Assembly (NCBI GenBank): GCA_021234155.1
Contig: JAJEKV010000064.1
Location: forward strand, 2,914,001-2,978,000
Direction of reading: 5' to 3'
Origin: Isoetes taiwanensis
Lineage: Eukaryota; Streptophyta; Lycopodiopsida; Isoetales; Isoetaceae
Length of the DNA: 64,000 nucleotides
Numbering within the stretch: position 1 is the stretch's first letter; each line of letters begins with the position of its first letter. Shown one piece after another: positions 3,961-33,117 of the stretch. A program made the position numbers and the translations under genes. Under the pieces are notes generated by a model. The model saw only the letters and a list, made by a program, of their open reading frames with translations, was not told the DNA's origin and made no database searches.

Positions 3961-5286
3961 TCACGCTGCTGTTGTAGGATCCCAAGCCACACAAAAGCCT
4001 TCATCCAAGGAGTCTAACTTCAACATGTCATCAGGTGATAATATAAAATCGAAAACCTGTATACATTGATTAATACCAGACAATTTTCAGAGCAAAAATT
4101 CGAGTAAAACCCATTTACCTCAGAATTTTCTTTTATTCTTGCTGGGTTGCTAGACTTTGGAATGACAACAAATTCTTTTTGGAGACACCAACGGATGAGA
4201 ACTTGTGCTGGGGTTTTGTTGTAATGCTTTGCAACCTGTCTTTTACATCACATTAGTCTCTTTATTAAAGCAAATTATTTATAGGACTCTTCTTTGAAAA
4301 CAAGAGATAAAATTTTACCTCTACCACTACTTTGTCAGTGAGGCGCCTCCCTCTAGTCAATGGAGAATATGCTTCAAGAGCAATATTCTGTGACCGACAA
4401 AATTCAACTAACTTCTTCCTTGAGTTGAAAGGATGAAGTTCTAACTGCCATGAAATGCAGAATGTTAGCAGTGAAAGTTTTACATAATAAAGGGCTCTAG
4501 CTCTGTTACACACATTTGACAAATATCAAAAAGCCAACCTGATTAACTGAGGGCCGAATTGTGCAGTGAGCAAAAAGCTCCTCTAAATGTTTTATTCCAT
4601 AATTGCTTACTCCAATAGACCTTGCCTTTCCACTTTTAAGGATAGTTTCCATGGCTCTCCATGTCTCTAATCTCTTCTCAGACATGGGCGAGTGCACCAG
4701 ATACAAGTCCACTATCATAAATCATATAAAGAAAACTTAATATGACGCAGGAAATGCACCAGATACAAGTCCACTATCACAAATCATATATAGAAAGCTT
4801 AACATGATGCAGGATATGGTACATATGCCATAAATCTGAGTGTTTTAAGATACTAATCCACATAAATCTTGTTATACATACATACCATAGTCCATATCCA
4901 ATTCCTTAAGGCTGCGCTCGAAAGCCCTCAGCGTCTCATCGTAACCATGATCTGAATTCCAAAGCTTGGTTACAACAAACACCTCCTTCCTAGGAATGCC
5001 ACTTTCCCTCACAGCCTTGCCTGACCAATCAAAAACCTAATTGAAACTACAACACACACAAGCATAAGGAAAAAATTAAGGGGAAAAAACTCATACCTAC
5101 AGCGGCCTCGTTTCCGTATAAATGGGCGGTGTCGATATGACGATATCCAAGCTTGAGAGCTGCCGGAACCGCCTGCATGACCTCTTTGGGACTCATCTGC
5201 CATACTCCAAGTCCGAGCTTAGGGATTTGAATGTCCACACCTGCTCCTACGTTTACAAGCTCCAGACATCCGCACTCCATCGCCAT
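3961..5286 (-). CDS. Aldo-keto reductase, six exons, 278 aa
   Basis: Exons (minus strand): 5286-5097, 5020-4886, 4711-4539, 4444-4319, 4235-4119 and 4056-3961. All introns are GT-AG; the coding total is 837 nt ending in TGA. The product is a single-domain NADPH-dependent oxidoreductase of the AKR superfamily, expected to be cytosolic with a (beta/alpha)8 barrel. The catalytic tetrad is present: Asp52 and Tyr57 in [11 protein letters not shown], Lys82 in FVVTKLW, His115 in DLYLVHSP. Cofactor-side motifs follow: [17 protein letters not shown] and [12 protein letters not shown]. At 278 aa it is close to compact bacterial and plant 2,5-diketogluconate-reductase-like members and shorter than ~315-aa forms. 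I chose Met at 5286; the frame stays open to 5412, so a longer start is possible but the upstream part looks like 5' UTR. Substrate cannot be told. Intron 2 carries a duplicated 3' splice region, and a LINE-type tail lies upstream. Confidence 0.93.
4693..4816 (-). repeat. 62-bp duplication of an exon-3 acceptor inside intron 2 of the aldo-keto reductase
   Basis: The unit spanning the end of intron 2 and the first ~19 nt of exon 3 (4693-4754) is repeated immediately upstream in the intron (4755-4816) with a few substitutions. The extra copy keeps the GATAG-type acceptor (as GTGATAG), so the intron holds a second, decoy acceptor followed by a duplicate of the exon start. Confidence 0.85.
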
Positions 5287-5453
5287 TATTTCTGTTTGTG
5301 ATTGTGTTAGTCCGATGCCAGCATGTTTTCCTTTGATCGTGAAAATCGGCACATGGCAGTCATAAACTTTATAGCCTATTAACAAGTGCCATTTCTTTAC
5401 ATGCTTTCCCATTGCATTTTTGAAATTGGGCCCAGCTTACAAACATTCTAACT

Positions 5454-8240: not shown

Positions 8241-8831
8241 GAGCCTCGACAGACGAAATGCTCCATTGGTGGTAGGATTCATTGATCAGCCTCATAGGCT
8301 CATTTCAAGTCTACATATTGAATCTCTCATATTAGACAACTCTTGCAAAGATCTATAATCAAAATAACAAAGAATGAATCTTCCTATTCTATATCGCTGG
8401 CAGTGCAAGCAAATAGAAAAATTGTTGACCTGCTTTTGCTTGCCCTTATCACAAAGCCAACTCAAATTAAATTTTATCTAATATACTTAATTCAAGTAGA
8501 GTGCAGCTCATCATTGAAGAACAGTAGTTCTGTTGCAATTTAGGGTTTAGGAACGACCACCGTATAAGATGCACCATAAAAATCTGCCACAAAAATGTAG
8601 AAACCCATTAATTATCACAACGATCTCTATTGTACCATCACATTGAGGGATTAGCAGCAAACGCTGGCGAAAACATTTTGCCCTAAAAACACAGTGACTT
8701 TTCTTGGAAAAAGGGACCAAGAAAAACACTATTATGGCTAGGAATTCAAAAAATGGCATAAGGACCTGCTGGCAAAAATGTACTCTAACGTCGAAAAACA
8801 TGTTAGCAACTGCCCCCTAAGACTTCTTAAG
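8241..8831. other. No gene recognised
   Basis: Unique-looking AT-rich sequence between the segmental duplication and the LTR. The open frames are short and carry no known motif. Confidence 0.5.
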
Positions 8832-10336
8832 TGTGACGTTCCAGCATAACATACGATCCGAATACGTATATTATACTGACACGGCACACGTACATGTCAC
8901 CACGACAAGTACTTGAGAGCCGTAAAGGGTTGCACCTAGGGGGCAAGATGCAATTAAAACCCCTTGCCAAGTGGCAATACCCCATTTGGCCCCTTCTGAC
9001 CTAACCCTAAAAATTCATATATAAGGAACCAAAGGGGAAACCCTAAACCTTTCCCCTTTCGCATTTTGGGTTCCCTGAGCCATTCCGGCCAAGGCAAGCT
9101 GCCATTCCGCATTGCCAAGCGCCGCTGAGCTGCCTTTGCACATTAGATTCATCAAGAGCAGCTGTCTTCAGCAAGAACGAGAGCGTGGACGCGATCCGGG
9201 GAGCTGGAGCAAGTCAAGGATCAGGTAACTTGCGATTCTATTGTGCAAAGCCGCCTCTTAGCCCGGCAATGAGTTAGGATAATATGTTAGATCAGTCCTA
9301 TCAGCCTTGTAGATCCCAAGATCACCAGCCGTAATGAAAGAACCTAACCTTGTATGTTAGGTAAGATAAATTAGATCTTATTCAGTATTTCAGTTCTGGA
9401 TGATGATGATGTTCCATTCTATGCTCTCCCGTGTATGTGGGAAGGGGGGTAGAGACCCTGAAACCTTCAGTAGCAAATGATCCTAGATAACCTCATTAAT
9501 TCCCAATTAATACGGCCCGTGTACAAGAGCCCGCCTGGTTGTGGGCGGCGGGGCTAGACCGATGGAACAAGGGGGACTTGTCCCATCACTGATTGACCCC
9601 TCTGGTGTGTAAAGCCTACCAGGGATCTAAGCTGGCTAGGCTTAATGGTTTGCCACTGCGTGTGGGCAAGGCATGAACTCGACACCTCTTGGGTGATCCG
9701 TCGCCTTCAATGAGGTTCAAGTCGAATACGGGCAGTGGCCCTCTAGCCTGTGATGGGCATGCATGCCTCTGGAGGAGAGGAGACTCTCCTCCTGCCTCAT
9801 TGGGACTGGGAAGATGCAACCCAGTAGTAGCCCTTTGGCTACGCACTCGACAGGCTACGGTCCAGTCCCAAGAGTCTTCAACCAACTCTACAAAGTGTGC
9901 ACGGGAGGGGCGGACGGAGTGGACTACCCAACAGCCATGTTCTTATGCCAGTCCAATCCAATTGCCATGAATTCTGTCTGCATTGACTTCTGGAGACCCA
10001 AGCCGTCAGTCGATCCCCCATGAGTCTGAGCCTTGGGTAGGATTCCCCTTATGTTGATGTTACTGATGTTGTTATTACATATGTTATGTTGTGGTGTATT
10101 CATCCTTCGAGGTCACTTGTTGCTATATTGATGTCATGTGCTTATGTTTATTCACGTTTCTGCAGCTAGGACGGTCCCGAGGGAAGACGGGGCAAATGAC
10201 CCATCCATTCTTCCCCATTGATCCAGTGTCAAGGATTGGTGTCAAGTGGATGGCCCCTATCAGTTTGGCTGCCAGGGGGATGAACTCCACCTTCTGATAT
10301 GATGGGAGCATTGTAGAAGAAGTAGGGGACGTCACA
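8832..10336 (+). mobile_element. 1.5-kb long terminal repeat (5' LTR) of an LTR retrotransposon
   Basis: The block starts TGTGACGT and ends ACGTCACA, a perfect 8-bp inverted terminal pair with canonical TG...CA ends. It is followed after one base by a primer-binding site. TATATAA at 9018-9024 would serve as an LTR promoter, downstream of an ACCCTAA motif. The 1505-bp length suits large plant LTRs. No second LTR is visible, so the rest of the element is deleted, displaced by the cluster to its right, or beyond the window. The GC-rich open frames within (9616-10023) look like chance. Confidence 0.8.
9018..9024 (+). promoter_or_regulatory. TATA box of the LTR
   Basis: TATATAA, 187 bp into the LTR, followed by a GC-richer stretch that would be the transcribed R/U5 part. 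Inferred from position and sequence only. Confidence 0.5.
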
Positions 10337-10337
10337 G

Positions 10338-10349
10338 TGGTATCAGAGC
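10338..10349 (+). other. Primer-binding site for initiator methionine tRNA
   Basis: TGGTATCAGAGC is the classical plant retrotransposon site complementary to the 3' end of tRNA-iMet. It sits one base after the LTR end, which fixes the LTR boundary and the plus orientation. Confidence 0.9.
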
Positions 10350-10562
10350 ATGATCTTGGTAGACCAAGATCGGGCACTGACCATTCCCTGTTAGAACTAA
10401 CAGTAGAGTTCCAGTCTTAAGAATAGCAACCCAAGCATGAACCTCAAAAATTTGGAAAAAAAAAGAAAAAATTCAAATCCTTAGAGTAGCAAGTAGAATA
10501 ATGCTAAGTTAGGAAGAATTATGGGAAACCCCTGAAAAATTAGGGCCATTAGGAAGTGACCC

Positions 10563-10625
10563 CTCACAGAGTGCGCCCTGGGCATTTCTAAACTTTTTGA
10601 GAATGCTTCTCGCACACTGTGTGAG
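10563..10625. repeat. Hairpin repeat, copy 1 of 4
   Basis: The arms CTCACAGAGTGCG and CGCACACTGTGTGAG pair around a spacer containing AAACTTTTTGAGAATG. Direct-orientation relatives lie at 14490, 16066 and 16270. This copy is ~210 bp after the primer-binding site. Confidence 0.82.
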
Positions 10626-10703
10626 CAGTGGACCCATGTTGACCTAGCCAGATGCATAATTAGAGCAATCTGAGAGTAGCTTAAACCTTGAATTTGAGCT
10701 AGG

Positions 10704-10879
10704 AATATGTAGCATAATAACAGGGGGTTACTTTTTGTTTTTTATACGTTTTTTCACATGGTTTTTCTATGATTTCGTTGTTGTATTCATTGAGGTGTAC
10801 TAAATAGTATTTCTAGAGTGCACCCTTTATGGGCCGTTAATTTTCGTTGGCTGAAACAATCCGAGGGTTGTTGTCTTTC
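10704..10879. mobile_element. ~176-bp non-autonomous element, copy 1
   Basis: Runs from AATATGTAGCATAATAACAG to GTTGTTGTCTTTC. An almost identical inverted copy at 33696-33870 is absent from the sister LTR at 26.4 kb, which shows that the unit is mobile. A diverged copy is at 12735 and a terminal fragment at 58831. There are no clear terminal inverted repeats. Confidence 0.75.
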
Positions 10880-10898
10880 TCTGCATGTTTGTGCATGA

Positions 10899-11073
10899 AC
10901 ACTGCGCATGTGTATGCATGTGCATGTGCACGTGCATGTGCACGTGTGTGCATGTGCATGTGCATGTGCACGTGTGTGCATGTGCATGTGCATGTGCATG
11001 TGCATGTGCATGTGCATGTGCATGTGTATTCTGCTTGTGCATGTGCATGTGCATGTGCATGCGCATGTGCATG
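10899..11073. repeat. (TGCATG)n / (GTGCAT)n microsatellite
   Basis: About 175 bp of hexanucleotide repeat, interrupted by ACGTGTG variants and by TATTCTGCT. The long Cys/Met/His/Val-rich open frames on both strands are artefacts of this repeat. Confidence 0.95.
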
Positions 11074-11079
11074 TGTACT

Positions 11080-11782
11080 TGCCCTCTTGGATTCTTGTTG
11101 CCGGAGTGGATGTTTGCTGATGGAAGGTTATCACGAGATGGATTTTTTGCTCACATTTACAAAGGTATTTGTTTTTTTAATGTTTCTTCAGTTAATATAA
11201 TGGTATTTTTTACAAGATATTGGTTTTCTGATTCTACAATGCAATGCTGCAAAACCCGCCTTTGTTTCCTTCACTTTGTCTATTCTAAGATTTGTTGCAG
11301 ATTCTAAAAGAGTTTAGAGTTTTAGGCCCTCTGTTTGCTTCCAACTTCTTGGATATTCCTGGCCTGCTGGATTATTCATAGTAACCAGCCTTTAGCTTCA
11401 ATCAACAAATGGATTCTTGTGCACACAACAGGCGGATTATTCCATGCCGCTTTCTGAGTCGTGCAGATCAGTCAAACAGTGGCCATATGGAGCATCCAAA
11501 ATCATATGGATTGATAAACAATGGTTTCATTGTGAAAGAGAAATAGCTGTAGCTGAAGTAACACGTGGAATGCTAACAGAGCAAGCTTGCTTCAAAACCT
11601 CTATCCTTGATCTCGCTTCACTGACTGTTACAGGAAACCTACTCCACATCACCAAACTGGCCGATTCTCTTCACTTGTTAAACCAAAGCCAGGCAACCCG
11701 TGAGAAAGTGTCACTAAGTTCTTTATGAACCTCACCAATTGTTACTGCAGAGTAACGTTGATGTTGTTGTCTTTCATGCAAT
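11080..11782. other. No gene recognised
   Basis: A 103-codon plus-strand open frame at 11417-11728 has ordinary composition but no motif I recognise, and no partner exons are evident. It is left uncalled. Confidence 0.4.
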
Positions 11783-11937
11783 GGTTTGTGAATAAAACAT
11801 TATTGTCAAGCATATCAATGTCTAAAGCTTTTATTTGATTCAATTTTATTTTGTTACTAAAGGTTTGTGAATAAAACATTATTGTAGAGCATATCAGTGT
11901 CAAAAGCTTTTATTGATTCAATTTTATTTCACTAGTA
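11783..11937. repeat. 79-bp imperfect tandem duplication
   Basis: The unit starting GGTTTGTGAATAAAACATTATTGT occurs at 11783-11861 and 11862-11937 with several substitutions and small indels. Confidence 0.85.
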
Positions 11938-12734
11938 AAATTCTATTTTCTAAATTAATATCAATCTAACCAATTTCTTTCCTTTACGTTCATGCAGACT
12001 ATAGAATCTCTCAATCCATCAATTCCACATGACATTTCTTCGATGCCTGAAGTCAACATGATGTTGATCCAACATTACTGTACTAGAGAATCCAATAAAT
12101 GAAGATCAAGTTCAATTAGTCCCCGCCACCATCAAGCAACAACCACCACCAAGCATGGCTAAGACCCTATTGATGTGTTGTTATTATAGTTGGTTGGTTG
12201 GTTGGGTTTACGCGGCGCAAGTAAATAGGCTAACCGCCCTCGTAAGATTTGTTTGATAGGCAAATCAACGAAGATGTATATCGTATCTTAAGCCGCTATC
12301 TATTTTGAGTGCTTCAAAATTGCTATAATACTCTTGCTGTCTTCAATGGCTTAATAAATTTTTAAATAATATGCTTTTAAAGCGTATGTAATTAAGTTAC
12401 ATTATGCTATAATATTATAGTTACTCAGGCTTCATATTAGTTTTTTTTTTTTTTTTTTTTTTTTTGTTATAATGCTAGATATTACATATTACATATTGCT
12501 ACATGTTTTGCATGTTTACATGTTTTTACATATGTTTGGTTTTTCTTATTCCTTAATCTACACCGTACGTAAAATTCCTCGTTTGTGGGGTATGCAAGTA
12601 CAAAATTTGCTATACTGTATAACAAGATTTGCAAAATACTATAAGATTTGAAGCAAAATACTATATGGTGTTGATTTTGTACGTGCAAAATATAATTATA
12701 AGGGCTCTCGCTGCCCTACGTCACCCCCCGTATG

Positions 12735-12880
12735 AATATGTAGCATAATAACAGGGGGTTTTCTTTGTGTTTTTGTACGCTTTTCACTAAGGTTTTCCTA
12801 TGATTTCGTGATGTATTCAAATGGATGTACTAATGCGTACATCTAGAGTGCACCATTTCTGAGCCATTGATTTTAGCCCT
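12735..12880. mobile_element. ~176-bp element family, diverged copy 2
   Basis: Shares AATATGTAGCATAATAACAG, the ATGATTTCGT segment and TCTAGAGTGCACC with the copy at 10704, but with many substitutions. It lies inside the foldback cluster. Confidence 0.7.
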
Positions 12881-12890
12881 TTTTTTTTCA

Positions 12891-13061
12891 ATGGTCAACA
12901 ACCAATGGCTCACAACAAAAGCCCTTTTTTTGTGCGTGTGGTGCATAATGGTCAACAACCAATGGTCGACAACAAAAGTCCCTTTTTGTGCGTGTGGTGC
13001 ATATTGGTCAACAACCAATGGCTCACAACAAAAAGCCCTCTTTTTTGTGTGTGTGGTGCAT
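12891..13061. repeat. Three tandem ~57-bp units
   Basis: ATGGTCAACAACCAATGG followed by a poly-T tract and GTGCGTGTGGTGCATA is repeated from 12891, 12948 and 13003 with small changes. It gives rise to repeat-only open frames on both strands. Confidence 0.88.
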
Positions 13062-13724
13062 AATGGGCACATGAAGGGCTTGAAGGGCGCATGTAGTGCG
13101 GTTTCCCGGCAACACATTTCTTATCATAACTTTTGATCGAGCTCTTTGCTTCGGATGATTTTTATTGCGTTGGAAAGCTCTCTCAGAGATCTTTTTGATA
13201 GTGTATGATATGGATATGTTTGGTTAAATTATCTATGCTAAAACAGCAATTTTTCGGCCGGGTTTGGTAGGTTTTCACATCCTACCCGGTGATTATCTGA
13301 TTGCGCTATTGGATATTGTTTTATGGCTCATTCGAATGAAGCTTGCAAACAATTACCATGCATTTTAGATTTTGAGGCAGTTATTAAGCAAATTCCAAGG
13401 CTTCTAGATCCTTGTGCTAACAAGCGAGAAAAGTTCCCCACTTTGGTTTCTCACCACAAGAATCCATGGAGGCCAAGCCGGCTCTTTGTTAAATTCGGTT
13501 GAAAAATGTTTGTGTATGGGTGTTGCAAACTTTGACTTTTGAGAATAATGGGATCAATCTGCTCTATCTTTATGGTAACTTTTACTTATGTTCTATTTGT
13601 TTTATTGTGATGAAATTCAAAAGCTCTGATGCAATGTGATGAAAGCCTCAAATGAATTCTAGTTTTTTCGATTTGAATTCTAAAATTTTTGTCACACCTG
13701 GGGAGGGGTGACGTCCTAAGGCCC

Positions 13725-14300
13725 CGAAGGGCCAAAATTTTTTTTTTGCAACACAAACCATTAACATCCAACATATAAAAATTAAATCCCCAACATATAA
13801 CGACCAACACACATAACAACCATTGACATCAACAACCAACACATAACTACCATTGACATTAATTAACACAACCATTGGGTCCAACACATTTAAATTAAAA
13901 TCCCCTTAAACCCCCTTTGGTTTGAGTGCATATTCACCGCGAGGGCCCTCATAATTGTATTTTGCACGTACGAAATCAACACCATATAGTATTCCGCTTG
14001 AAATCTTATAGTATTTTGCGAATCTTGTTATACAGTATAGCAAATTTTGTACTTGAATACCCCACAAACGAGGAACTTTACGTACGGTGTAGATTAAGGA
14101 ATAAGGGGTGAATATGCCTATCCAACAGCTCTCGTTGCCCGGAGTCACCCCCCGTGTGAATATGCACCCAAACCAAAGGGGGTTTAAGGGGGATTTTAAT
14201 TTAAATGTGTTGGATCCAATGGTTGTGATAATTAATGTTAATGGTAGTTATGTGTTGGTTGTTATATTAAAAAAAAATTTGGGCCCTTTGGGCCCTTAAA
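13725..14300. repeat. Inner inverted repeat of the foldback cluster
   Basis: The left arm 13725-13940 (AAGGGCCAAAATTTTT, AACCAACACATAACTACC, CCCCTTTGGTTTG) is mirrored by 14140-14297. The left arm additionally holds a short internal tandem duplication of the AACAACCAACACATAAC segment. The arms would form a stem of ~150 bp. Confidence 0.75.
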
Positions 14301-14489
14301 AAACCAAACATATGTAAAAACATGTAAACATGCAAAACATGTAGCAATATGTAATATGTAATATCTAGCATTATAACAAAAAAAAAAAAAAAACTAATAT
14401 GAAGCCTGAGAAACTATAATATTATAGCATAATGTAACACTAAGAAACTACTAATAAAACGAAAATTTGAGTCAAAAAAGGTGTGACCC

Positions 14490-14547
14490 CTCACAGAGTG
14501 TGCCCTGGGCATTTCCAAAACTTTTGACAATGCTTCTCGCACACTGC
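14490..14547. repeat. Hairpin repeat, copy 2 of 4
   Basis: CTCACAGAGTGTGCC...CTTCTCGCACACTGCA; the right arm is less complete than in the other copies. It lies ~115 bp upstream of the TATA box of the H3-like gene. Confidence 0.78.
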
Positions 14548-14640
14548 ATTGGTGGGTACTTTTTGCCTAAAGGAACCCAATGTATCAATCCAGCAGACAC
14601 TAATGCTTTACAGAATGGTACGACATAAAATTGCAGGTCC

Positions 14641-14670
14641 AAACCCTAAAATCCCCAGACCTATAAATAG
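14641..14670 (+). promoter_or_regulatory. Promoter of the H3-like gene: telo-box plus TATA
   Basis: AAACCCTAAAA (14641-14651) is a telo-box of the kind common in plant histone and translation genes. It is followed by TATAAATA from 14662. The ATG is ~110 bp downstream, leaving a short pyrimidine-rich leader. Promoter activity is inferred. Confidence 0.6.
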
Positions 14671-14773
14671 ACATTTAGGGTTCTTCAATTTCACTTTCCT
14701 TCTCCAGCTAGCTGCTCTCCGTCCAAGAAGGCAATTTTTAGGCGCTCCGAAGGCGATCATCATATTTCAAAAC

Positions 14774-15915
14774 ATGGCCCGCACCAAACAAACCACTCGA
14801 ATGGTTGTACCAGACGATTACGTCAGCGCCCAGGTTCTTGCAGCCCAACAGAAGGTCAGAGAGGCTCAGGAGCGAGCCAGGCAAGAAGAGAACCCTGACC
14901 CAAATCCTGATGCTGAGGAGGAGGATCAGGAGCAGCAGGACGAGGAAGAATATCCCCAAAACCCTGAAGAGTAGGAAAACCCCAAAAATCAGGGCAATGG
15001 AGGAGGGGACGAGGATGACGAGGACGAACCACTGCCAGAGGAGCTGGTACGTAAGCTGAAGAAAATGGCAAAGAGGAAGAGGGCGGCGAAGAGAAAGAGA
15101 ATTGCGGAGAAGGAGGAGCGGGAAAGCTTGAGGAAGGAACGACAGAAATTGAAGGAGGACAAAGGAAAGGACCCCGAAGTGCCCAAGAATCCCCGGCAGA
15201 AAACCAAGTCAACACCAACAAAAGGGGTGAGCATAAGGGAGCAGGATCCCGACAGGCCGTCGTCATCGTCATCAGACACCGAGTCGGATGAAGATGAGTC
15301 AAGGGTTCCCCACCCAGCAGAAGGCTCGGGACCTTCAAATGTAGATGCTAAGGAGGAAGAATCTGCCGCAGCACCCCCATACCCCAAGTGGCCGAATCCA
15401 AAGAAGGGCAGGCCGGCACGGGAGTCGTATGTACTCAAACACGACCGAGAGTACAGGAAGAAGCTAAAGAAGTAAAACGAGTACATGAAAATGTACGAGG
15501 AGTACTCGAAATGTTACGAAGAACATAAGGTAACGTACGTGGAGGGAGGAAGGCCATCTAAGAAGAACACTTTGAAGCCGTCCCCGGAGAGACCCGTACC
15601 CCCGAAGAAGCCAAGGAAGAGAAAGGCGGACTCCTATTTTGCAAGAGCTGCTCGGGAGATCCGACATTTTCAGAGGAGCTACGGACTGCTGATACCAAGA
15701 GCTGCTTTCGCAAGATTGACCCGCGAGATCTTGCAAGAATTTGGCAAAACCAAGAGAGTGACCGATGATATGTTACTCGCATTACAGGAAGCAGTAGACA
15801 AAAGCTAGTTCAACACTTCGAAGACTCACTAGCATGTGCTCTCCATGCAAAAATGGTCACTTGTATGCCTAGAGATATGAAATTAGCTAGATTTATTAAG
15901 AAGGAAGATTGTTAA
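14774..15915 (+). pseudogene. Histone H3-like protein with a giant N-terminal tail, broken by two stops and one frameshift
   Basis: ATG at 14774 begins MARTKQTTR; canonical H3 begins MARTKQTAR. The same frame runs on through an acidic Glu/Gln-rich part (to ~residue 90), a Lys/Arg/Glu coiled-coil-like part (~97-150), a Ser/Asp/Glu patch (~165-185), and two AT-hook-like cores, KKGRPAR (210-216) and GGRPSKK (258-264). It ends in an H3 fold: REIRHFQRSYGLLI from residue 294 (H3 REIRRYQKSTELLI), FARLTREILQEF (FQRLVREIAQDF) and ALQEA. After a 1-base shift near 15799-15805 come LVQHFED, HAKMVTCMPRDMKLARFI (H3 HAKRVTIMPKDIQLARRI) and a stop at 15913-15915. The tail before the fold is ~293 residues against ~48 in H3. 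In-frame TAG at 14972 (codon 67) and TAA at 15473 (codon 234) interrupt it. No introns are needed. An extreme CENH3-type or novel H3 variant is possible; nucleosomal function is inference. Confidence 0.88.
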
Positions 15916-16065
15916 CTTATTGTAATTACAAAACTTTTTGTAAATATAAAAATATATTTTGATCAAGTTTGAAGTGCAAAAGTGTAAATAATAAGGTTGT
16001 AATAATGATATGTGCATTTGGAATTAGCTAATTTGGACAAAAAGCCAGTATTTTTGACCCCACCC

Positions 16066-16128
16066 CTCACAGAGTGCGCCAGGAGCATTTCCAAACTTTT
16101 TTAGAATGGCTCTCGCGCACTGTGTGAG
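16066..16128. repeat. Hairpin repeat, copy 3 of 4
   Basis: CTCACAGAGTGCGCCAGGAGC pairs imperfectly with GGCTCTCGCGCACTGTGTGAG over about 21 positions. It lies ~150 bp downstream of the H3-like stop codon. Confidence 0.85.
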
Positions 16129-16269
16129 TGGTCGGCCACTGATCTATGTCCAGACTTGCCCAAATGTAGAAAGTAAGGGCGCAGACTGCCCTAACTCAAC
16201 GAGATAAGTAGGATTCTACCCTTAGATTGTAAAATTTGAGCCATCTTGGATCCAAACAAGAGCCCACCC

Positions 16270-16332
16270 CTCACAAAATGCACCAGGAGCATTTCCAAAC
16301 TTTTTGAGAATGGCTCTCGCGCATTGTGTGAG
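16270..16332. repeat. Hairpin repeat, copy 4 of 4
   Basis: CTCACAAAATGCACCAGGAGC with GGCTCTCGCGCATTGTGTGAG, same orientation as copy 3 and 204 bp from it. The stem mismatches arise from transition-type changes. Confidence 0.85.
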
Positions 16333-16474
16333 TGGTTAGACCAAAATGGCCCAACCTCATTCCAGCCACCTCCAAATTAGATGAAATTTGTTGCAATAGG
16401 ATCCTTAGGATGCACTCTTTTACTTACATTACCTATGAATTGCATAGCAGCACCTCAAAGTGATAGATATCCCC

Positions 16475-16680
16475 AAACCCTAAAAAAAATTTAAATTAGG
16501 GTTTTGCCTATAAATAGGACAACAACCCTTATTTGCACCTTACTCTGTTGCTCCTCACTCCAAGGCGATTTCTCAGCTCCCAGAGGCGCTTCCATATCTG
16601 TTTGATAACCCCAGCAACACTAGCATCATGGCACAGAAGAAAATGATTACACATATGCAAAGATCATCTACTCCACAATA
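16475..16680 (+). pseudogene. Second H3-unit-style promoter and leader with a truncated 17-codon frame
   Basis: AACCCTAAAA (from ~16477), an ATTAGGGTTTT copy on the other strand, and CTATAAATAGG (TATA from 16509) reproduce the layout upstream of the H3-like gene. The leader has similar CTCCAAGGCGATTT / AGAGGCGC words. The ATG at 16628 opens MAQKKMITHMQ and stops by 16680. It looks like the 5' end of a diverged sister unit whose body is lost. The relationship is inferred from layout and short shared words. Confidence 0.45.
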
Positions 16681-19391: not shown

Positions 19392-22102
19392 CTAATCAAC
19401 ATTGCCTTCCACCTTTTGCTTTTTCCACTTGTAAGCAGCTTCTAAAATTTTCAAGGTCGGGGCCGCTCCTAATTCTTCAGGGAATATGTAATCGATATAC
19501 TCCTCATATCTGATGATGCATAAGAACAGATTAGATTAATAAAGAATGTATTGTTGCTCACCATAAGAAAACATTTCTCCATTTCGTAGCTTAAATTAGA
19601 ATTTGGAAAGCTGAAGGTACATACCCAGAAGGAGTTCCATCCTCTGACATGATTGGCCTTTTCCGTTTGACCCGCCGTGGCATCTTTCGTTGAACCAAAG
19701 CCACATCCCCAAAATCGCCAAAGCTCCTCTCCATTTCCTTCCATTCATCAAGAAGCATTGCTCTTTCCTCTTTTTGTTCTGGTGCAGATGATCTAAGCGA
19801 TTCAAATGCCCTTTCAAAAACACCTGAAACATTTTGCCGGGATGAGAAGCCTGACACAACTTTTAATGTAAATTTACCAGGCAAGACATATTAATACCTC
19901 TTGAACGAAGTGCCCTCTGCATGCTTTGCTCCTGCAGTAGACTTTCATCAGGTTCTCTACCTTCTTCTTGTGCTGACAGCTCTTCCTCAAGTGCAATGCC
20001 AGCTTCAAACTTCGCATAGCTCAACCACACCTTCAAGTGCTTCGTTCTGTCAAGGAGCCTCTCATATAACTGTCTTGTTCGTTCATGCTCTCCTTCTGAA
20101 ATTTCAAATTCTATGTATGCCTGCAGAAAATAACAAACAGTTTAGCACTGGTCATCAAGGAGAAAGTCATGAAGGGAGGAAGAGCATAGATGGCTGCTGA
20201 CTGAAAACTACACGAACCTTCCATAAAAGTTCTGGCATATCTAAGACAGGCTGCATAATTGCTAGCTCGAAAATTGATCTCCCTCTGTCTGTTTCCCCGA
20301 GGGACCTTTCAAGCTCTGCGTATTTACTCCATGCATAACAATTTGCAGGAGCCCATTCCAAGTACTTTTCATATAAAACTCGACAGCGGTCTATATTTCC
20401 CAGCTGTAATTCAATCTCGATGTAGGTTTTGAAAATCTGAACATACAAACCAAGTTATATTCATTGCTTAAAGGTACTTATTGGTCCCAAACGCACTACT
20501 CAGAATATAAAGCTTGCTCTCAATTAAAAAAGCCCAAAAAGGAGGCCTCAAAGACCTCGTAAGGCACGCACCTTGTCCTTTGGAGCCACACCAATTGCAT
20601 TGCCTAATACAAGACGTGCAGCTTTTAAGTTTTTCTGCCTGATCTCAAACTGCGCAGCCATTATCCAGATTTTTGCAAATGAAAACTTTTTATGCGGAAT
20701 TAACTTTAAGCACTCCCTGAAACAGGAATAACTTAAATATAAGCATAATTAAGCTTGAAATGAAAATGCATACAAATTATGCCAATATCAGGTCATTACC
20801 GGTAAACTTCTTGGGTACGCTCCATATCCTCCGCTTCCAGCTCCTCATATAGAGCATAAAATATCCTATAAAAAAGGTGTGCAAATGAAACATTGAAGTG
20901 GGTTCAAAGGTGCCAGGACATGAATTTTGAAACAAGGCTGCTACATACCATATGTAAATATAGCGTTGCCAGTATCTTTTTTCTTCTGCAGGAGGAACAT
21001 TAGCAATGGCTCTTTCATAAACTTCCCTAATACGATCTTTGTTGCCTACACTTTCCTCGAGCCTTATATAATCAAACCAGACATCATAATTGCGCGAGTT
21101 TTTTTTTATTTCCTCTTCATACTGAAACCTTCTCTTCCCTACAATGACATCTTCAATCCCCTCCCTATCGCCGTACTTTTTTTCAAATGCAACGAATTTT
21201 TTGTACAAGTCCTCAGCTTGTCCTTTGGGAATGTGATCCAACGCATATTTGTAGATGCATCGAGACCTTTCAAGTTCCTTGCATCGTTCTTCAAATTCTG
21301 CGAAGGCAACAAACAACTCCTCTGTTTGCCCATCCTCTTCGAGCTGTGCAACTGCTCGTTCGTAGCAACTTCTGGCCCTAGTTACTTCCCCATTCTTGAA
21401 CTCAAACTTGGCAAATTTCACCCATGCCTTCACAGTAGGCAGGCATTGCACATACCTTTCATAGATCGCCCTTGCTCGATCAACTTCGTTATATCTCAGC
21501 TCAAACTTAATATAAGCAGACCATCCATGGTGATCTGGTTCCCACGCCATCCATCTTTCAAAAATCTGTCTAGCACCTGCAACATTTCCCAGCATTTCCT
21601 CCATGTGAATGTATTTATACCATAATTGATCAATGCGAGGCAATAAGGATACAGCCCTGTCCCATACATTTCTGGCATGATTTATGAACTTATTTTTCAT
21701 CTCCATTTCCGCATACTTGAGCCATAACGTGGTGTTTCTGTACTCAACCTCCAGCGCTCTCTCCCAAACCGAACGAGCCCTCGCAAAATCTTTCTGGGTT
21801 TCTTCCCATTGAGCATATTTAACCCAAACACTGACATTCCACCTTACCCGTCTTATAAGATCCTCGAACTCCTTTCTCCGGCGAAGACGGTACTCAGAAA
21901 GCTCATCATAGTCAGTGATCTTCTGTTTAGGAGGACGGATTTCTGCTTCCTGTCGTTCACGAGCTTCCCGAAGGATCTGCTCTGCTGTGATTTGAATAGG
22001 GGCAGGTGTCTTATTCTTAACCCTAGTGGGACGAGGTAATTTTACCTCTGTCTCTTTACGAGTGAGGTACCCGAGGGTGGGTTCCCCTTCTCTGGACGCC
22101 AT
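19392..22102 (-). CDS. CLF1: Crooked-neck-like pre-mRNA splicing factor CLF1/CRNKL1, seven exons, 707 aa
   Basis: Exons (minus strand): 22102-20949, 20865-20800, 20716-20572, 20436-20218, 20120-19898, 19823-19625 and 19509-19392. All introns are GT-AG, the phases join, and the coding total is 2124 nt ending in TAG. The protein starts [11 protein letters not shown] with the family N-terminus ([16 protein letters not shown]). About 16 HAT (half-TPR) repeats follow, marked by recurring W..YA..E and R.R.(I/V)(Y/W)ERA patterns, for example [38 protein letters not shown] and [20 protein letters not shown] basic tail has PRRVKRKRP and [14 protein letters not shown]1 is a scaffold of the Prp19/NineTeen complex in activated spliceosomes in the nucleus; full length matches plant orthologues (~700 aa). 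No truncation. A telo-box lies just upstream, and a retrotransposon LTR ends 133 bp before the ATG. Confidence 0.97.
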
Positions 22103-22235
22103 AGCCGGAACAAGCTTCTGAGCTTGGAGCTCAAAGGGTAAAATTTTAGGGTTTTCCCCCTCTGATATATCTCTATGGCCCTTTCTGCGCCTTTTTAACT
22201 ACTAGTTTGTCCCTATTTTGGCCTTCTGAACTACT
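22103..22235 (-). promoter_or_regulatory. Remaining native promoter/leader of CLF1 with telo-box
   Basis: Minus-strand AAAACCCTAAAA (22141-22152) is a telo-box about 40 bp before the ATG. Only 133 bp separate the ATG from the inserted LTR, so any further native promoter elements are displaced ~16.5 kb away. Confidence 0.6.
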
Positions 22236-22786: not shown

Positions 22787-23810
22787 TCAACTGTCCTCAG
22801 TTGGCAAAGTAGATGAACCCCCTGGAAATAATATAGGCCTGTTACATTCACTGCGCAGATAGACTTCCCTGTAAGCTTCCAACAGAGGTAAGTAATGCTC
22901 GAAATAATCTTCTGATTTCCATCCTGCTTCAGTATATGGCACCTCCTTATACTTTACCAAATATCTGCGTTTAATACCACGACCCTTATGCCTCATAATC
23001 ATCTCAGGTTGATACACTGTATTATCATCCACTAACACTGGTTCTGATGCTTGCGGCACTAATTGTGGGTTAACTCATTTAAATGACCTGAGATATTCCA
23101 CATTAAAAGAATTATGCATCTTCCAAATATCGGGCAATTCCAACCTGTAAACATTATCATTTATCTTTTCAGTGATCCTAAAAGGTCCATAAAACCTGGT
23201 AAGAAGCTTGTGCTTTTTCTGTTCGGAAGGAGCACGTCTTTCCTTAATGATTTTAATGAATACCCAGTCATCCACCTGATATAGAACCTGTCTGCGTTTC
23301 CTGTTCGCTTGACGAGTGTACCTTTCATGTGCAACAGTGAGTGCTGCGCTGGTGGATTCCAAAACAGCATCCATATCCTTAGCAACTCGATCTGCCTCTA
23401 TCACACCTGCCACTTTAATAACCGGATTTGGAGGTAAACGTCCCTGTATAATATAAAAAGGTGATAAACCTGTGGCTGAGTGTGTGGCCATATTATAAGC
23501 AAATTGAACCACTGGAAGATACCGCTTTCAATCAAAAACATGCTCATGTACAAAACTGCGTAGCATGCTTAGAAGAGTTCTATAAGTAACTTCTGTCTGC
23601 CCATCCGTCTGAGGATGGAAAGCTGTGGAGAAATGCATCCTTGTACCTAAATTTGTAAACAATGCTCTCCAAAACTTGCTGCAAAACTTTGAATCTCTGT
23701 CAGAAATTATTACCTCCGGCAATCCATGGTTCTTAAATACTTCTTTCAAAAATAATCGTGCAGCATCATGAGCTTTTAACGTCTTTTTGCAAGGAATAAA
23801 GATTGCATAT
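22787..23810 (-). pseudogene. Ty3 chromovirus pol, internal region 1, sense arm: integrase core to chromodomain
   Basis: Minus strand: integrase core with ISDRDSKF and FHPQTDGQTE, then VQFAYNMATHSATG, the C-terminal DDWVFIKIIKE and NSFNVEYLRSF segments, and a chromodomain (KRRYLVKYKEVPYTEAGW). Stops and frame breaks separate the pieces near 23525 and 23065. It begins abruptly at 23810 inside the integrase core, so the first catalytic Asp region is absent from this arm. Confidence 0.85.
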
Positions 23811-25048
23811 GGGTAGTGATTTTCACATTAAAACAGACCAACAAAGTATTCAGTTTTTATTGACACAAGCTTCTGCAAACCCACGCCAGGTTAAATGGGC
23901 AGAGTTGTTATAGTGTTTTGGGATTGATACTAATGCTATTCATTATAAGCCAGGTCCACAGAATAAAGTTGCTGATGCTCTTAGTCGCGTGCGTCATTCA
24001 GATGACATTATTCAGATGAATAATTTTTCCCTTTGGCGGGAAAGCACATTTGAGGCAATGAAGGGTATGTATGAGCAAGATGATGAATTTGGTAGTGTTT
24101 GGATTGATTTGCATGAAAGCCAGCAACGTATTATTGACAATTTCTATTTACGCAAAGGATATTTGTTTTTCAAAGATTGTCTTTGTGTTACTCCACAATT
24201 CAGGGAAACGGTTCTACGGGAATGCCATGAGGTAGCAATAGCAGGTCATAGGGGTATTTTTAATACTCATGATTTGGTTTGAAAGTATTTCTATTGGAAA
24301 ACTATAAGAAAAGATATTGTTGCTTTTGTGGAAAGATGTCTTGTGTGTCAGAAAACCAAAGATTCTCATGCCAAAGTATGACACTAAGTATCCCGAAAAA
24401 ACCTTTTCAGCATATCAGTATGGACTTTGTTAGTGTTCCACGGAGCAGACAAGGTAATGATCAGGTTTGGACCATTGTGGACCGTCTGAGTAAGTATGCA
24501 ATCTTTATTCCTTGCAAAAAGACATTAAAAGCTCATGATGATGCACGATTATTTTTGAAAGAAGTATTTAAGAACCATTGATTGCCAGAGGTAATAATTT
24601 CTGACAGAGATTCAAAGTTTTACAGCAAGTTTTGGAGAGCATTGTTTACAAATTTAGGTACGCAGTTTTGTACATGCGCATGTTTTTGATTGGGAGCGGT
24701 ATCTGCCAGTGGTTCGGTTTGCTTATAATATGGCCACACACTCAGCCACAGATTTATCACTTTTTTATATTATACAGGGACGTTTACCTCTAAATCCAGT
24801 TATTAAAGTGGCAGAAGATGTGATGGAGGCAGGTCGAGTTGCTAAGGATATGGATGTTGTTTTGGAATCCACCAGGGCAGCACTCTCCGTTGCACATGAA
24901 AGGTACACTTGTCAAGCGAACAGGAAACGCAGATAGGTTCTATATCAGGTGGATGACTGGGTATTCACTAAAATCATTAAGGAAATACGTGCTCCTTCCG
25001 AACAGAAAAAACACAAGCTTCTTACCAGGTTTTATGGACATTTTCCAC
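23811..25048 (+). pseudogene. Ty3 pol, internal region 1, inverted arm: RNase H end to integrase
   Basis: Plus strand, starting at GSDFHIKTDQQ of RNase H and running through PGPQNKVADALSR, the integrase zinc-binding region (ERCLVCQKTK), QHISMDFVSVPRS and ISDRDSKF. After a small deletion near 24660 it continues to the C-terminal region, ending at LLTRFYG exactly at the LTR edge. It is opposite in sense to its own LTRs. An in-frame TAG within GELL*CFG is shared with the equivalent arm of internal region 2. Confidence 0.85.
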
Positions 25049-25534
25049 TTTTACGAATAAGGGCAAAAAGGCAATTGAAAGAAAGATATATTTGGCAAAC
25101 ACAAGCGCTAAAATGGATTGTTTATTCAATAAAGGAAATACAGAGAACAACATGAGTAATGAAATAGTCCAACCGCCTGACCACGGAACTAGCACTTCAA
25201 AACAATGAAGTAAACCACTAGGAGCCTCCAAGACTCCGCCGCTAGTTCCTCCCCTGAACTATGATGTAATCTCTCTCAGAGCCAATCTCTCTCGAGACAA
25301 CCAATGATGCCACATTATTCCACAACATGTTCTTATAAACCATAAGGATCTATTCTCGTCCTCTCATCTATTATTGGCTCTGGCTCCTGTAATACATCAG
25401 ACTAAGATTAGCATCATCTATTCTTTAATCTCCTCCAATCATAGATAACCAATAATAGAGTAGCTAATTCTATGGTGCACTATGATTGGCATGACAATTA
25501 GAATAGCTAATTCTAATGCCATGGTTGTATAAAA
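25049..25534 (-). repeat. LTR 2 of the array, first part (continues at 35250-35301)
   Basis: Matches LTR 1 and LTR 3 up to TTGTATAAAA, then jumps into the TIR element. The missing ~50 bp resume at AAAAGTCTGGAC (35250). Confidence 0.88.
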
Positions 25535-25851
25535 GGGTGAAAGCATTCTAGGGTGTACCATCTAAAGTTCTTTTTAGGGAGTGCAAAACTACCCAAAAAA
25601 GTACCCAACACTGGGTACTGGGAACTTGCATAAAGGTCTCAATAAACAATAAGTTTGAGAGTTGATTCATTAATTTTAATCTCTAATAGTGTTGTTATCC
25701 TCTGATACTATAGATTGACATGTTATTGACCTTCAATTCAAAAGTTTTGAATTGATTTTAATGGGAAGAAACAACAGAAAGTACTAGTTTTAAAAGTACC
25801 CAGTAAAGGTACTTTTGAGGGTTCCAAAAGTGGTACACCGTTATTGACCCT

Positions 25852-27740
25852 AAACCTGGCTTAAAGGTCAACCACAAGGAAATTGGGGTTAGAACCTCCA
25901 GATCACTTAAGGTGATCAGTCTATGCAAGATAAATTTAAATACAAGTTCAAAAATGTGAAGTTCTATACCTTTCACATTTCCAAAAACTGGCACCTTTGC
26001 CAAAACAGATGTGGTGATGAGATGTAAATTGATTTTTTGAGTCAAGCACTATAGACTTGGTCAAAAAAGTTGTAGGTACCCAACAGTAAAGCCTCTGACC
26101 AAGTCAGAGACTAAATTTATGAGTTATTCGAGCTCAAAGTGTGGTTAAAATTTGGTCAATAGAGGTCAAATATGGGAAACAATGATCAGAAAATGAGATT
26201 TGAAGTTGCTAAGCTTGTTTTTGAGAATTTCCAAAGCAAATATATTGCAGTGGTGATAAGGAAGAGAGGCAAGTGGTCAAATTCTCATTTAGATGTGTAA
26301 AAGTATTTTTTGTGGCTGGATTTGGCAAAATACAGTCAAAACTGTTCAAAACATAGAGCAATTTTCTTGAAGTTGAGCTAGACGTGATGTTTTTGGATGA
26401 TTTCAACTCCTTTGGCTTCCACAAGTCCTAAGAATAGTTGGCAAGTGGGCCAAAAGAACTAGAAAACACACGAGAATTTTCTGGAGAATATTTTGTGGCA
26501 AGAATTGTTAAGAAAAATATCAGAGATTAATTTGACAACTTGGCAATCAATTTGAATTGATATGAAGGTAAATATATCATGATAACAATAGATAAGGATG
26601 CTTCATAGCTTTAATCACAGGAAAATAATCATCACAAGTAATGTCAACTAGATCTTGTAAATCCAATTGAGGAGAGCTCAGGAACTTCAAGGATCGTTCA
26701 GATCTTGCTCAGCAATGATCAATGTAGGATCTGAGTACTTCTGGGCCTTCAAAAATGTTGAGGTTGTGTTTCCCCTGTATATAGTTTCGAATCTCGGTTT
26801 CAGTGATTTTAGGTAATAAATTTAGGCTTAATCTATTGCTTAAGTTCCGGAATCCAAGAATAGGGTGGTCTCAGAGAAAATGGAACGCGGGAAGGCATGA
26901 TTCGAGCTGGATTTCCAGTTCTAGGGTTCTTCAGCTGTATTTTCGCATAATTTGCGCGATACGGTTTCGTATTTTTGTAGGAATATACCCTGTATATGTT
27001 GTATTCAACCCTTTTTAAAAGCTTGGCCAATGATTCAAAGACCTTTACCCATAAAATACTTAAAGGAGATTATAGCCCAATGACCATAGGGATGATTGCT
27101 CACACGTGCAAGAGGATAGGGAATCTTTGAGGCATTTTTTGACAAGGTTGGGAATATACCACTGAAGATATGATGGAATAAGAATGAAGGTAAAAGAAAT
27201 TATGAGGGACATTTGAGGGGGCAAGGAAAAAATAAGGAGAAAGGAATGATATTTTTTGAGACAAAGGCTTAAGTTGGTTTTGAAATAGGCAAGGTGATGG
27301 CACATTGAAGGAATCAATAGGGAATTTGATGAAGATGGCAATTATGGCAAAGCAATCATGGCAAGTGAATGAATCAATGGATATGAAAACAAAGTTGAGC
27401 CAAAAAGTGCTAAAATGGGAGTAGTGAGGTGGAGCAAAGGGAAAGATTAGAAACTATACACCATGGGGTCTTCCAAACTCTAAACTTCCAATCTTCAAAA
27501 TATGTCTTCCAAACTTCATAACCCAGATTCTTCTAGAGCATACCCTTTAACTAAGCCAAAAAATACCTCTTATGAACTTTAACCTTGAGCTCTTGTTGAC
27601 TTGAAGAATGAACATCCTTTGACCTCCATATCAATGTTGAGTACCAAGAATCTTCCAAACTTTGACCTAGTATTCCAAGATAAGTTGGCCTAGTTTGAAT
27701 GCATAGATCACAATTAGCATGTTGCCCTTTGGGGGCAACA
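25852..27740 (-). repeat. 3' LTR of the dual-RNase-H element
   Basis: 1889 bp, closely matching 33118-35229. Relative to that copy it lacks ~27 bp near 25890, some 20 bp near 26640 and the ~175-bp insertion. Short conserved-looking frames inside both LTRs are shared non-coding sequence. Confidence 0.9.
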
Positions 27741-28600
27741 TCTCGCCAAAACAAGAAAAAGGCTGGTCCCCTCAGCCATATGATGTCAAAAATAAATAAC
27801 TAGAGGTGTCTTCAGCTTTGTACCAAGATGTCTAAGTGGGAATCATGATAGAATAAGAGTGTGAAGTGCAAACGTTGATGAGATGAGTGTGAATGTGGTG
27901 ATGAAATGATGTGAATGGAATATAATGAGTGAGAAAAGGCAAAAGTGAGTGTGAATATGATAGGATGATGGTGCAATGGAGATGAAGTGATTGTGCAAAT
28001 GTTTGAGATCTCGCCAAAACAAGAAAATGCATGTCTTCTACTTGATCTTCAAAAAGTTGCAACTCTGCTATGGTGGTAGAGATGAATTGCAGAGTGCTTT
28101 TCTTCTCTTGGGAATGAAAGCAAGAATAAAAAGTCTAAATGGAAGGTAGGGCTACTTATGACAGATGAAAAAGAATGGAGGAAGAGTGCACCTGTCATGG
28201 AAACACACAAACCAATTAGTCTCAAATCCTTGCAACTCTGCTATGATGGTAAAGGTGACTTTGCAGAGTGCTGTTAAGGTATGAAAAAAAAGAATAGGAG
28301 GTTGAATGGATGGTAGGAATATTCTAAGACAGATGAGAAAATGGAAGAAGGATGCTCCTGCATATGACACTTGGTAATCATTAGTATCAATCCTGTTCTT
28401 GAGATCATGTGTACTCTTATCTGGTAAGATCAACCTAAAACATGACCAATTCTATTAGAGTATGTGCTCAAAGTCAAGCTAATCTAACTGCTGGAATAAT
28501 GTACTCAAAAGTCAAACTGATTTAACTACTTTAAACCTACTATAAATCTCTAAGCTTTTAATGTAAAAAGAGGGACAAGCAAGCATGCTGGTCCCAATAC
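27741..28600. other. 3' non-coding region of the dual-RNase-H element with an imperfect tandem duplication
   Basis: No pol homology. A unit containing TTGCAACTCTGCTATG and TTGCAGAGTGCT is repeated with a ~173-bp period (about 28056-28400). CTCGCCAAAACAAGAAAA also occurs twice (27742 and 28010). Confidence 0.65.
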
Positions 28601-28644
28601 CTTTTCAGGTGCAGGATGTTGATAGGATTTGGCAGTGGCATTCC

Positions 28645-29700
28645 TTAAGCAACCTCTTGTAACCAATAAGAATTAGTACCTGCAGGTTCCAGCACTACAA
28701 AGGGTCCTTCCCAAATATTATCAAATTTGCCAGCTGAGTCTTCCTTTGACTTGTTCCATTTGAGAACAAGCTCTCCTTTCTTAAAGGTGCCTTGTATTTT
28801 GTGTGCAGCCTTGAATGCAGCCAGATCTTTGGCCTTTTTCAGCAAATTAGTGTTCTCAGCTTCCATTCTAAATGTAACAGGGCGTCCAATCTTTCCTGTG
28901 CATGTTCAAAAGGTAAGCACAATTTATGAGCTAATCTCAAGGAAGGTAATTCAAGTTCTACTGGTAGAACTGCTTCTATGCCATAGACCAAATTGAAAGG
29001 TGTATGATTTGTAGCTGTTTTGATAGTGACTCTATAAGCCCAAAGTGCATCCACTATTTTGATATGCCAATCCTTTTTGTTAATCTCAACTGTCTTCTGC
29101 AAGATATTTTTCAACACTTTGTTAGTAGCTTCAGCTTGTCCATTACCTTGAGGATAATATGAAGAACTTTTGGTGTGCTTGACCTTCAAAATGCTCAACA
29201 AATTAGCAATGACTTCATTAACAAAGGGGGTACCTCTATCATAATGTATCTGGAAAGGAATACCAAATCTGGAGCAAACAAATTCATGTAAAAACCTTGC
29301 AGTTGTGAAGGCATTAGCTTGCCTCAAAGGTATAGCCTCTGCCCACTTAGTAAAATAATCTGTAGACACAATAATATGCTGATGTTGACCTGTAGAAGAA
29401 GGATTAATGGGACCAATATAATCTAGCCCCCAAATTTGAAAGGGTCCTGGAGATATGATAGGATTCAAGGCAGCTGGCAATAAAATTCTTTTACTAAAAA
29501 TTTGACATTGATGGCAAGTTTTTATGACCTCATAGCAATCTCTAAAAACAGTAGGCCAATAATATCCAGACCTGAGAATTTTTTTGCAGTGGTATCCCCA
29601 GCAAAATGTCCTCCACAGATACCTTTATGCATCTCCCTAATAATTAAGGCATATTCTTCTTCACTTACACACCTCAGCAAGATTCCATCCCTGTTAACTT
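28645..29700 (-). pseudogene. Integrase of the dual-RNase-H Ty3 element
   Basis: Order on the minus strand: zinc-binding part (LIIREMHKGICGGHFAGDT, then a C..C half read in a shifted frame near 29510); DDE core with the first Asp in WGLDYIGPI, the second in YDRGTPFVNEV (usual Ser-Asp-Arg replaced by Tyr-Asp-Arg) and the Glu in NGQAEATNKVL; then ALWAYR and a C-terminal domain (FKKGELVLKWN, WEGPFVVLEP). The core from 29480 to 28839 is one open frame of 213 codons. Frames shift at both ends of it. Confidence 0.88.
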
Positions 29701-30720: not shown

Positions 30721-31130
30721 TAAAGTAAGCGAGCATTCCCATTACCTGATTTCTCAGGGACTCCATGTCAGCATTCTTGGCCTGATACTCACCACTAACC
30801 TGTCTGCAAACTAACTGAGAATCTCCATAGATGTGTATGACTGAAATATCCATAGCTTTAGCTTCTTGAAGACCTGCAATCAAAGCCTTGTACTCTGCTA
30901 CATTAGAAGTTATTTGGGAAAAAATCCTTCCTACCTTAGCCAAGAGTTTATTGAAGGTATTCTTTAGTATAGCTGCAGATGAAGCTACATTTAGTTTCTT
31001 TGAAATCCCTCCATCAAACCATAAACACCCTTCTTTTCCATTCTCAGAAGGTAGTGCACACTCTCTAATCAAAGGACTCAGATCAGTTTTCTTTGTGCTA
31101 GGGGTTGCTAGACTATAAAATCCTAGGGGC
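30690..31130 (-). pseudogene. Archaeal-type RNase H (aRNH) placed upstream of reverse transcriptase
   Basis: WFDGGISKKLNVASSAAIL, NVAEYKALIAGLQEAKAM and IYGDSQLVCRQVSGEY carry the acidic residues expected for this RNase H type (Asp in FDG, Glu in AEY, Asp in GDS). The end lies in a shifted frame (SHSTNHVELLAK). In well-known Tat elements the second RNase H follows the Ty3 RNase H; here it lies between protease and reverse-transcriptase remnants. Confidence 0.82.
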
Positions 31131-31214
31131 TCTTCTATAAGCATTTCTTTAATAAAGTGTACCTCTTCCTTGAAGCCATAAGAACCATCCTGGTTGTAAA
31201 TTGTAGCTACTTGA

Positions 31215-33074: not shown

Positions 33075-33117
33075 GAGTTCTCGAAATCCAGGTAGAATCT
33101 CGGTAGAACCTCCAAAA

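Follow-up and report, generated by a model that had tools for sequence, protein, structure and literature searches.

The histone-like gene studied here is, with near certainty, the first open reading frame (ORF) of a Ty3/gypsy chromovirus of Isoetes taiwanensis. It lies between the primer binding site and gag. Its product is a divergent histone H3 that begins exactly like H3 and has a tail of about 280 residues, and the copy in the window (the whole stretch of 64,000 nucleotides that was analysed) is a truncated, dead insertion. The best overall explanation, for which we estimate a probability of about 0.85, is an H3 variant borne by a chromovirus; its proposed action on the chromatin or the silencing of the element is the less certain part, with less than even odds. 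The window copy comprises the following features:

8832..10336, plus strand: 5' LTR, TGTGACGT...ACGTCACA, with a sharp boundary and an LTR pair at C246
10338..10349, plus strand: primer binding site TGGTATCAGAGC, directly after the LTR end
10337..10706, plus strand: first part of the leader, common to other copies, with one hairpin repeat at about 10556
10707..14434, without strand: nested insertion missing from other copies, its flanking blocks being adjacent in 14 of 20 loci
14435..14773, plus strand: second part of the leader, common to other copies, with a hairpin repeat at about 14483
14662-14669: TATA-like box TATAAATA in the second leader part (motif scan)
14774..14800, plus strand: H3-like N-terminus MARTKQTTR in the sequence, the next codon being Met at the position of H3 Lys9
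14801..15628, plus strand: long acidic, basic and Ser-rich tail, periodic and conserved in copies, with stops at 14972-14974 and 15473-15475
15629..15912, plus strand: H3 histone fold (PDB and Pfam matches, alignment) with a one-base shift near 15800-15808
15916..16627, plus strand: 3' flank of the H3-like gene inside the element, with hairpin repeats at 16056 and 16260
16628..16633, plus strand: first two codons of ORF2 (ATGGCA), where this copy is broken off and 13 of 20 loci continue

An H3 fold behind a replacement tail

The plus-strand frame 14774-15805 of the window opens with MARTKQTTR and is interrupted by the two in-frame stops listed above, and the one-base shift places its last ~36 codons in a frame ending at 15912. 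A preliminary description had proposed for 14774-15915 an H3-like start, a very long tail (~280 residues) and an H3 fold in a dead copy; its coordinates and reading were correct, and the two stops and the shift were found as it claimed. It had also spoken of an insertion of ~245 residues. The long non-H3 stretch exists, but it is better termed a replacement tail, as only the first ~8 residues ahead of the fold are H3-like. The fold itself is real, since two separate pieces of the broken frame each match H3 independently. In a PDB search, the third piece matched H3 chains (best 1.6e-7) and the fourth matched H3.Y (7.9e-9). The Pfam Histone model was matched above the cut-off by the third piece (1.9e-10) and below it by the fourth (8e-5, 23.3 bits, cut-off 26.4), and a relative with an unbroken fold scored 4.5e-21. 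Rfam and tRNA scans gave no matches. A giant-virus origin was rejected, no relative of the third piece being found in one viral contig scan.

The H3-like frame is not a product of chance, because its stops are far fewer than in shuffles of the same composition: frame 0 contains 2 stops, whereas dinucleotide shuffles average 13.4, and none of 5000 shuffles had two or fewer. For the tail taken separately, the 2 stops compare with a shuffle mean of 9.7 (as low in 4 of 3000 shuffles), and its codon periodicity is strong (as high in 0 of 3000); the short fold piece alone shows no periodicity (1264 of 3000 shuffles as high). That the locus is an H3 gene of ordinary size with the tail as an intron has a negligible probability. 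GT-AG pairs removing both stops do exist (69 combinations), but the splice sites are weak and the tail is codon-periodic and, unlike an intron, poor in T (only 12%). It was also selected at the protein level (see below), and an intronic tail was rejected on splice sites, composition, periodicity and selection.

The first eight H3 residues (ARTKQTAR) are kept in family A. In the 40-row alignment, all 38 readable copies retain K4, whereas R2 is present in 30 of 37 and R8 in 30 of 38, five of the losses of R8 being stops. The position of H3 Lys9 is occupied by Met in 30 of the 38 readable rows, by Val in 7 and by Trp in 1. Of the modifiable H3 tail (K4, K9, K14, K27, K36), only K4 is kept; K9 is replaced and the remaining tail is unrelated. 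The tail contains a confidently predicted helix of 43 residues. The fold has the length of H3 and is identical to a typed plant H3.3 at 44 of 87 positions, its sole gap lying at the frameshift. Conserved within it are H113 (35/35), D123 (34/35), C110 (33/34), L126 (33/35), I130 (34/35), R69 (38/38) and R83 (36/38), which we take to be H3/H4-pairing or DNA-contact residues. R63 and R129, presumably also H3 contact residues, are lost (Pro in 34/38 and Phe in 35/35, respectively). K56 and K122, which we assume to be modification sites of H3 like K9, are replaced by Arg (39/39 and 35/35 readable copies). A structure model of half of the fold had low confidence (pLDDT 65), and no PDB structure matched it at E <= 0.001.

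The same fold bears on the question of whether the gene is a dead copy of the host centromeric H3 (CENH3), a reading to which we give hardly any credence. In comparisons with typed H3 and CENH3 sequences, plant CENH3 residues are found at 4 of 6 diagnostic positions (P63, A65, T85, L89) and H3 residues at none, and the fold is at least as similar to typed rice CENH3 (45/87 identical) as to H3.3. Plant CENH3 also resembles the element protein in its divergent H3 fold and variable tail. However, loop 1 has 0 extra residues, against 1-3 in four typed CENH3s, alignment scores favour H3, and the H3 tree (midpoint-rooted, built from 15 rows and 88 columns, with 5 of its 12 inner branches weak) groups family A with family C and not with plant CENH3 (90/92). 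The element protein further differs in its H3-type start. The retrotransposon context is decisive, and CENH3 identity was rejected on loop 1 length, tree and this setting.

The surrounding chromovirus

The genome (1,658,258,908 bases, 1110 contigs) was searched with the 1142-base gene, and the best 40 of 1074 loose candidates, the window's own place included, were scored; they are spread over many contigs. The 39 other places are 78-91% identical in DNA to the window copy, and the sample is biased toward its relatives since only the best 40 were scored. In 33 places, the window and 32 others, the match begins within the first 8 bases of the query and ends within the last 4; the remaining seven are partial, and one of these, C1070, ends before the fold. 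Tail and fold therefore form one unit, present as such in 32 of the 39 other copies, and the chance joining of the two, which the preliminary description had left as a possible objection, is ruled out. Its suggestion of open relatives elsewhere in the same genome was borne out by 3 of the 40 aligned rows, full-length and without stops or shifts, one of them with an in-frame deletion in helix 2. The new histone class of the host that it envisaged was rejected: the gene is a dispersed repeat and belongs to a Ty3/gypsy LTR retrotransposon of high copy number, of which it is the first ORF and whose start lies 6 kb further upstream in the window.

The limits of this element were obtained by comparing 20 gene copies and their flanks with the window. 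A sharp onset of homology at 8830-8832 is seen in 11 of 20 loci and a TG start in 11 of 20; in 13 of 20, homology ends exactly at 16633 and the locus continues with sequence of its own. The first block, TGTGACGT...ACGTCACA and then GTGGTATCAGAGC, represents an LTR end and a primer site. The primer site TGGTATCAGAGC at 10338, presumably of the initiator-Met tRNA type, shows small differences in the other loci inspected. The block ending at 10702-10717 adjoins the block starting at 14435 in 14 of 20 loci, and 10707-14434 is thus a later insertion. The rest of ORF2, gag, pol and the 3' LTR are missing from the window copy. The genome search with the LTR gave 7945 loose candidates (best 40 scored) against 1074 for the gene. 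Among the nine gene copies with a listed LTR upstream, the LTR lies 609-727 bp before the ATG in seven; the remaining two distances are 1568 bp and, in the window copy with its insertion, 4444 bp.

Some further observations concern the window. The motif TATAAATA was found four times within it, on both strands, in the motif scan. A hairpin repeat of ~75 nt occurs four times inside the element (10556, 14483, 16056, 16260), in the leader and behind the H3 gene, with folding z-scores of -5.5, -3.1, -1.6 and -1.5 for the four copies. The insertion nested in the retrotransposon leader includes a foldback element (12396-14438), whose inverted arms are long and nearly perfect. By eye, we also noted a long open frame like the splicing factor Crooked neck/CLF1 (20780-22198, minus strand), an exon like an aldo-keto reductase (5050-5436, minus strand), and more gypsy fragments with a LINE-like reverse transcriptase fragment (23078-37969 and 49298-50119).

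At C246, the sole element in which both LTRs and pol were observed, the H3-like gene lies between two LTR copies (~16.7 kb in total), which are 95.1% identical over 1471 columns and end in GTCACA; the first ~75 bases of the 5' LTR are lost. The order downstream of the gene is ORF2, gag, protease, reverse transcriptase (RT), RNase H, integrase, chromodomain and 3' LTR, as pieced together from L018/L029 and C246, with the pieces searched apart and the frames broken. Pfam matches were obtained for Retrotrans_gag (2.5e-17), RVP_2 (protease, 7.6e-10), RVT_1 (9e-19), RT_RNaseH (1.8e-19) and Integrase_H2C2 (integrase zinc domain, 2.5e-19). Chromo (PF00385) was matched at the integrase end of one element (2.5e-6, 27.7 bits, cut-off 25.1), and the integrase core rve was weakly matched, below cut-off and in a broken frame (0.0038). 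At least 9 of the 40 gene copies are followed on their own strand by a gag at a distance of 2.8-13.4 kb, one of these being the query gag; the pairing used 18 rows picked by eye from the ~150 best of 14,715 loose candidates, and a recount by eye of these ~150 rows gave no further gene-gag pair. Past gag, C1086 and C1025 share the protease and the start of the RT and then both diverge, and the C1061 stretch past gag showed no shared sequence. By eye, another gypsy element seems to be nested in the protease region of C246. ORF2, between the H3-like gene and gag (L018:6725-8357; an ORF of 431 aa on the minus strand at L052), has no Pfam match above cut-off and is conserved between families A and C.

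Based on the LTRs, the primer site and the order gag-protease-RT-RNase H-integrase-chromodomain, the repeat with the H3-like gene is a Ty3/gypsy chromovirus. It shares with plant Ty3/gypsy chromoviruses the LTR, the iMet-type primer site, the gag-to-integrase set and the C-terminal chromodomain, and differs in the H3-like ORF and ORF2 between primer site and gag.

Related families and purifying selection

A genome search with a typed canonical H3, in which the best 150 of 9022 loose candidates were scored, gave 15 full-length intact canonical H3 genes (96-98%) and 135 further H3-like places with 71-86% identity, mostly over residues ~25-135. Open frames of at least 400 aa were present in 51 of these 135 places, which may not all belong to one family. 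Family B has intact H3 ORFs of about 400 aa. In L054, which was read completely, the frame is open over 463 aa; its fold matches H3.3 at 3.2e-52 and is 80% identical to canonical H3, and its new N-terminal part has no Pfam match. The LTR end GCGTCACA, followed by GTGGTATCAGAGC, lies upstream of it in the following element:

G000:C1034:23090030-23107060: family B element with L054 and L055; 16 other listed places pair with the family B LTR

For the family B LTR end, the best 40 of 5994 loose candidates were taken. Twenty of them have a partner among the 135 H3 places, 17 of which are involved. The LTR end lies 1.6-1.7 kb upstream of the H3 place or 7-18 kb downstream of it, three places have one on each side, and all pairs share a strand. 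Family B, too, is thus an LTR retrotransposon. In the L054 element the two LTR ends agree at 98%, and the 40 best ends are 95-99% alike; the family B copies examined look young. The LTR ends of families B and A are 79% identical over 156 bases, and by eye the listed rows of both place no family A gag within 10 kb of family B genes. Family C is represented by one copy (L014), which starts with MAHTKCTARK and thus has Lys at position 9. Its tail and early fold are 34% like family A and its second ORF 31% (4e-25), and upstream it has a similar LTR end and the primer-site-like AGTATCAGAGC without the first bases.

Selection on the H3-like ORF was assessed in 40 aligned copies (39 from the genome and the window), restricted to codons readable in at least 15 rows and to variants that differ from the commonest codon by a single step. 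Variants in at least three copies comprised 266 synonymous, 121 nonsynonymous and 5 stop changes, those in exactly two copies 74, 86 and 2, and singletons 101, 316 and 18. The normalised nonsynonymous/synonymous ratios for shared, two-copy and singleton variants were 0.13, 0.32 and 0.89, with 0.07, 0.27 and 0.69 in the fold only and 0.14, 0.34 and 1.0 in the tail only (shared versus singleton, Fisher p 5e-39). Four open copies, of which one is partial, gave dN/dS values of 0.14-0.20 in their six pairwise comparisons. Purifying selection acted on the H3-like ORF, in the tail as in the fold. The low ratio of shared variants, together with a singleton ratio near 1, indicates that the ORF was constrained during the spread of the element and that it decays once inserted. 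Repeated mutation or gene conversion can, however, also produce shared variants. Such selection is a sign that the protein mattered and says nothing on its mode of action.

These data bear on the idea that a host H3 gene was captured as a passenger without function for the element. The capture of host genes by elements is well known, but strong purifying selection on tail and fold contradicts a functionless passenger, and in family B and the sole family C copy, too, an H3-like ORF follows an LTR end and a primer site, which makes this idea very improbable.

Proposed function and significance

As a tentative proposal drawn from sequence features, the chromovirus-borne H3 variant may pair with H4, enter nucleosomes at the DNA of the element, and escape or reshape silencing. 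Its conserved fold would pair with host H4 and bring the protein into nucleosomes on or near element DNA. The tail would not be markable by the host as that of normal H3 is, and could help newly made element DNA to evade or reshape silencing. The chromodomains of other chromoviruses read histone marks, and the integrase chromodomain would be a plausible partner of the H3-like protein. This domain is described as a histone-mark reader of chromovirus integrases in the available part of PMC9289625.

Two other roles are conceivable. The protein might be a nucleic-acid packaging factor or Gag partner, its fold binding RNA or cDNA in particles and never being nucleosomal. The position of the gene upstream of gag and the long charged tail with its predicted helix fit such a role, which we nevertheless regard as rather unlikely, given the H3-length geometry and the H4-pairing residues retained by the fold, and the ARTKQTAR start, needless for packaging. 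Slightly less probable still, the protein could be an integration-targeting factor that uses the H3 chaperones of the host to enter particular chromatin and directs the chromodomain integrase there. The element does encode a chromodomain, and the H3 start, to which tail readers bind, is present; against this, family A has another residue in place of K9, which chromodomains usually target.

A bolder and improbable version, argued by analogy, holds that a retrotransposon lineage brings its own nucleosomal H3, and that the family A tail could be a natural H3K9M, dominantly tying up H3K9 methyltransferases and disarming the silencing mark. In the accessible part of PMC5030085, H3K9M traps the H3K9 methyltransferase and blocks H3K9 methylation. 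Family A resembles this mutant histone (PMC5030085, in part) in having Met at position 9 after ARTKQTAR, but continues with VVPDDY and not with the STGGK of H3, and Met is not universal. Val in seven family A copies and Lys in the sole family C copy speak against a simple K9M reading, and K9M-type trapping is unproved here, as the residues after position 9 differ. The Met at this position may instead be a former start codon, belonging to an ORF further downstream that became joined to an H3 start.

Core histones encoded by mobile or viral genomes have precedents in bracovirus H4 and giant-virus histones, which belong to DNA viruses and represent other histones, not retrotransposons. The capture of domains by gypsy elements is already known, according to the accessible text of PMC9289625. 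In that text, orchid Ty3/gypsy elements likewise have an additional ORF encoding a host-type domain, in their case an AlkB-type RNA demethylase. The angiosperm screen in the same portion of PMC9289625 names CHROMO, PMD, AIR1, AlkB, G-patch, KOW, ArgoL2 and B3; a histone is not among them. Tcn1-like and other non-seed-plant chromoviruses are also chromodomain gypsy elements, lycophytes included, and an additional ORF of unknown function is marked in some of the drawn elements (PMC2864245, available sections). These sections describe SM-Tcn1 as differing from the present element, with 5.7 kb and gag and pol only, and mention no histone ORF. No retrotransposon-encoded H3 was found among the literature matches listed, which mostly come from outside subscription journals and were available in part, and the word 'histone' is not in the main texts of the Isoetes genome papers (including PMC8566536).

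An element with its own histone could alter the packaging and silencing of its DNA. Retrotransposons are repressed via H3 marks, and a selected H3 variant of an element would act directly in that contest. If this is true, such an element would provide a natural experiment on the parts of H3 that silencing needs, possibly including a natural K9M inhibitor, and would demonstrate that core histones can turn into selfish genes. Also, the histone family gene counts in such genomes need care, with 15 canonical against 135 other H3-like places among the best 150 of 9022 candidates.
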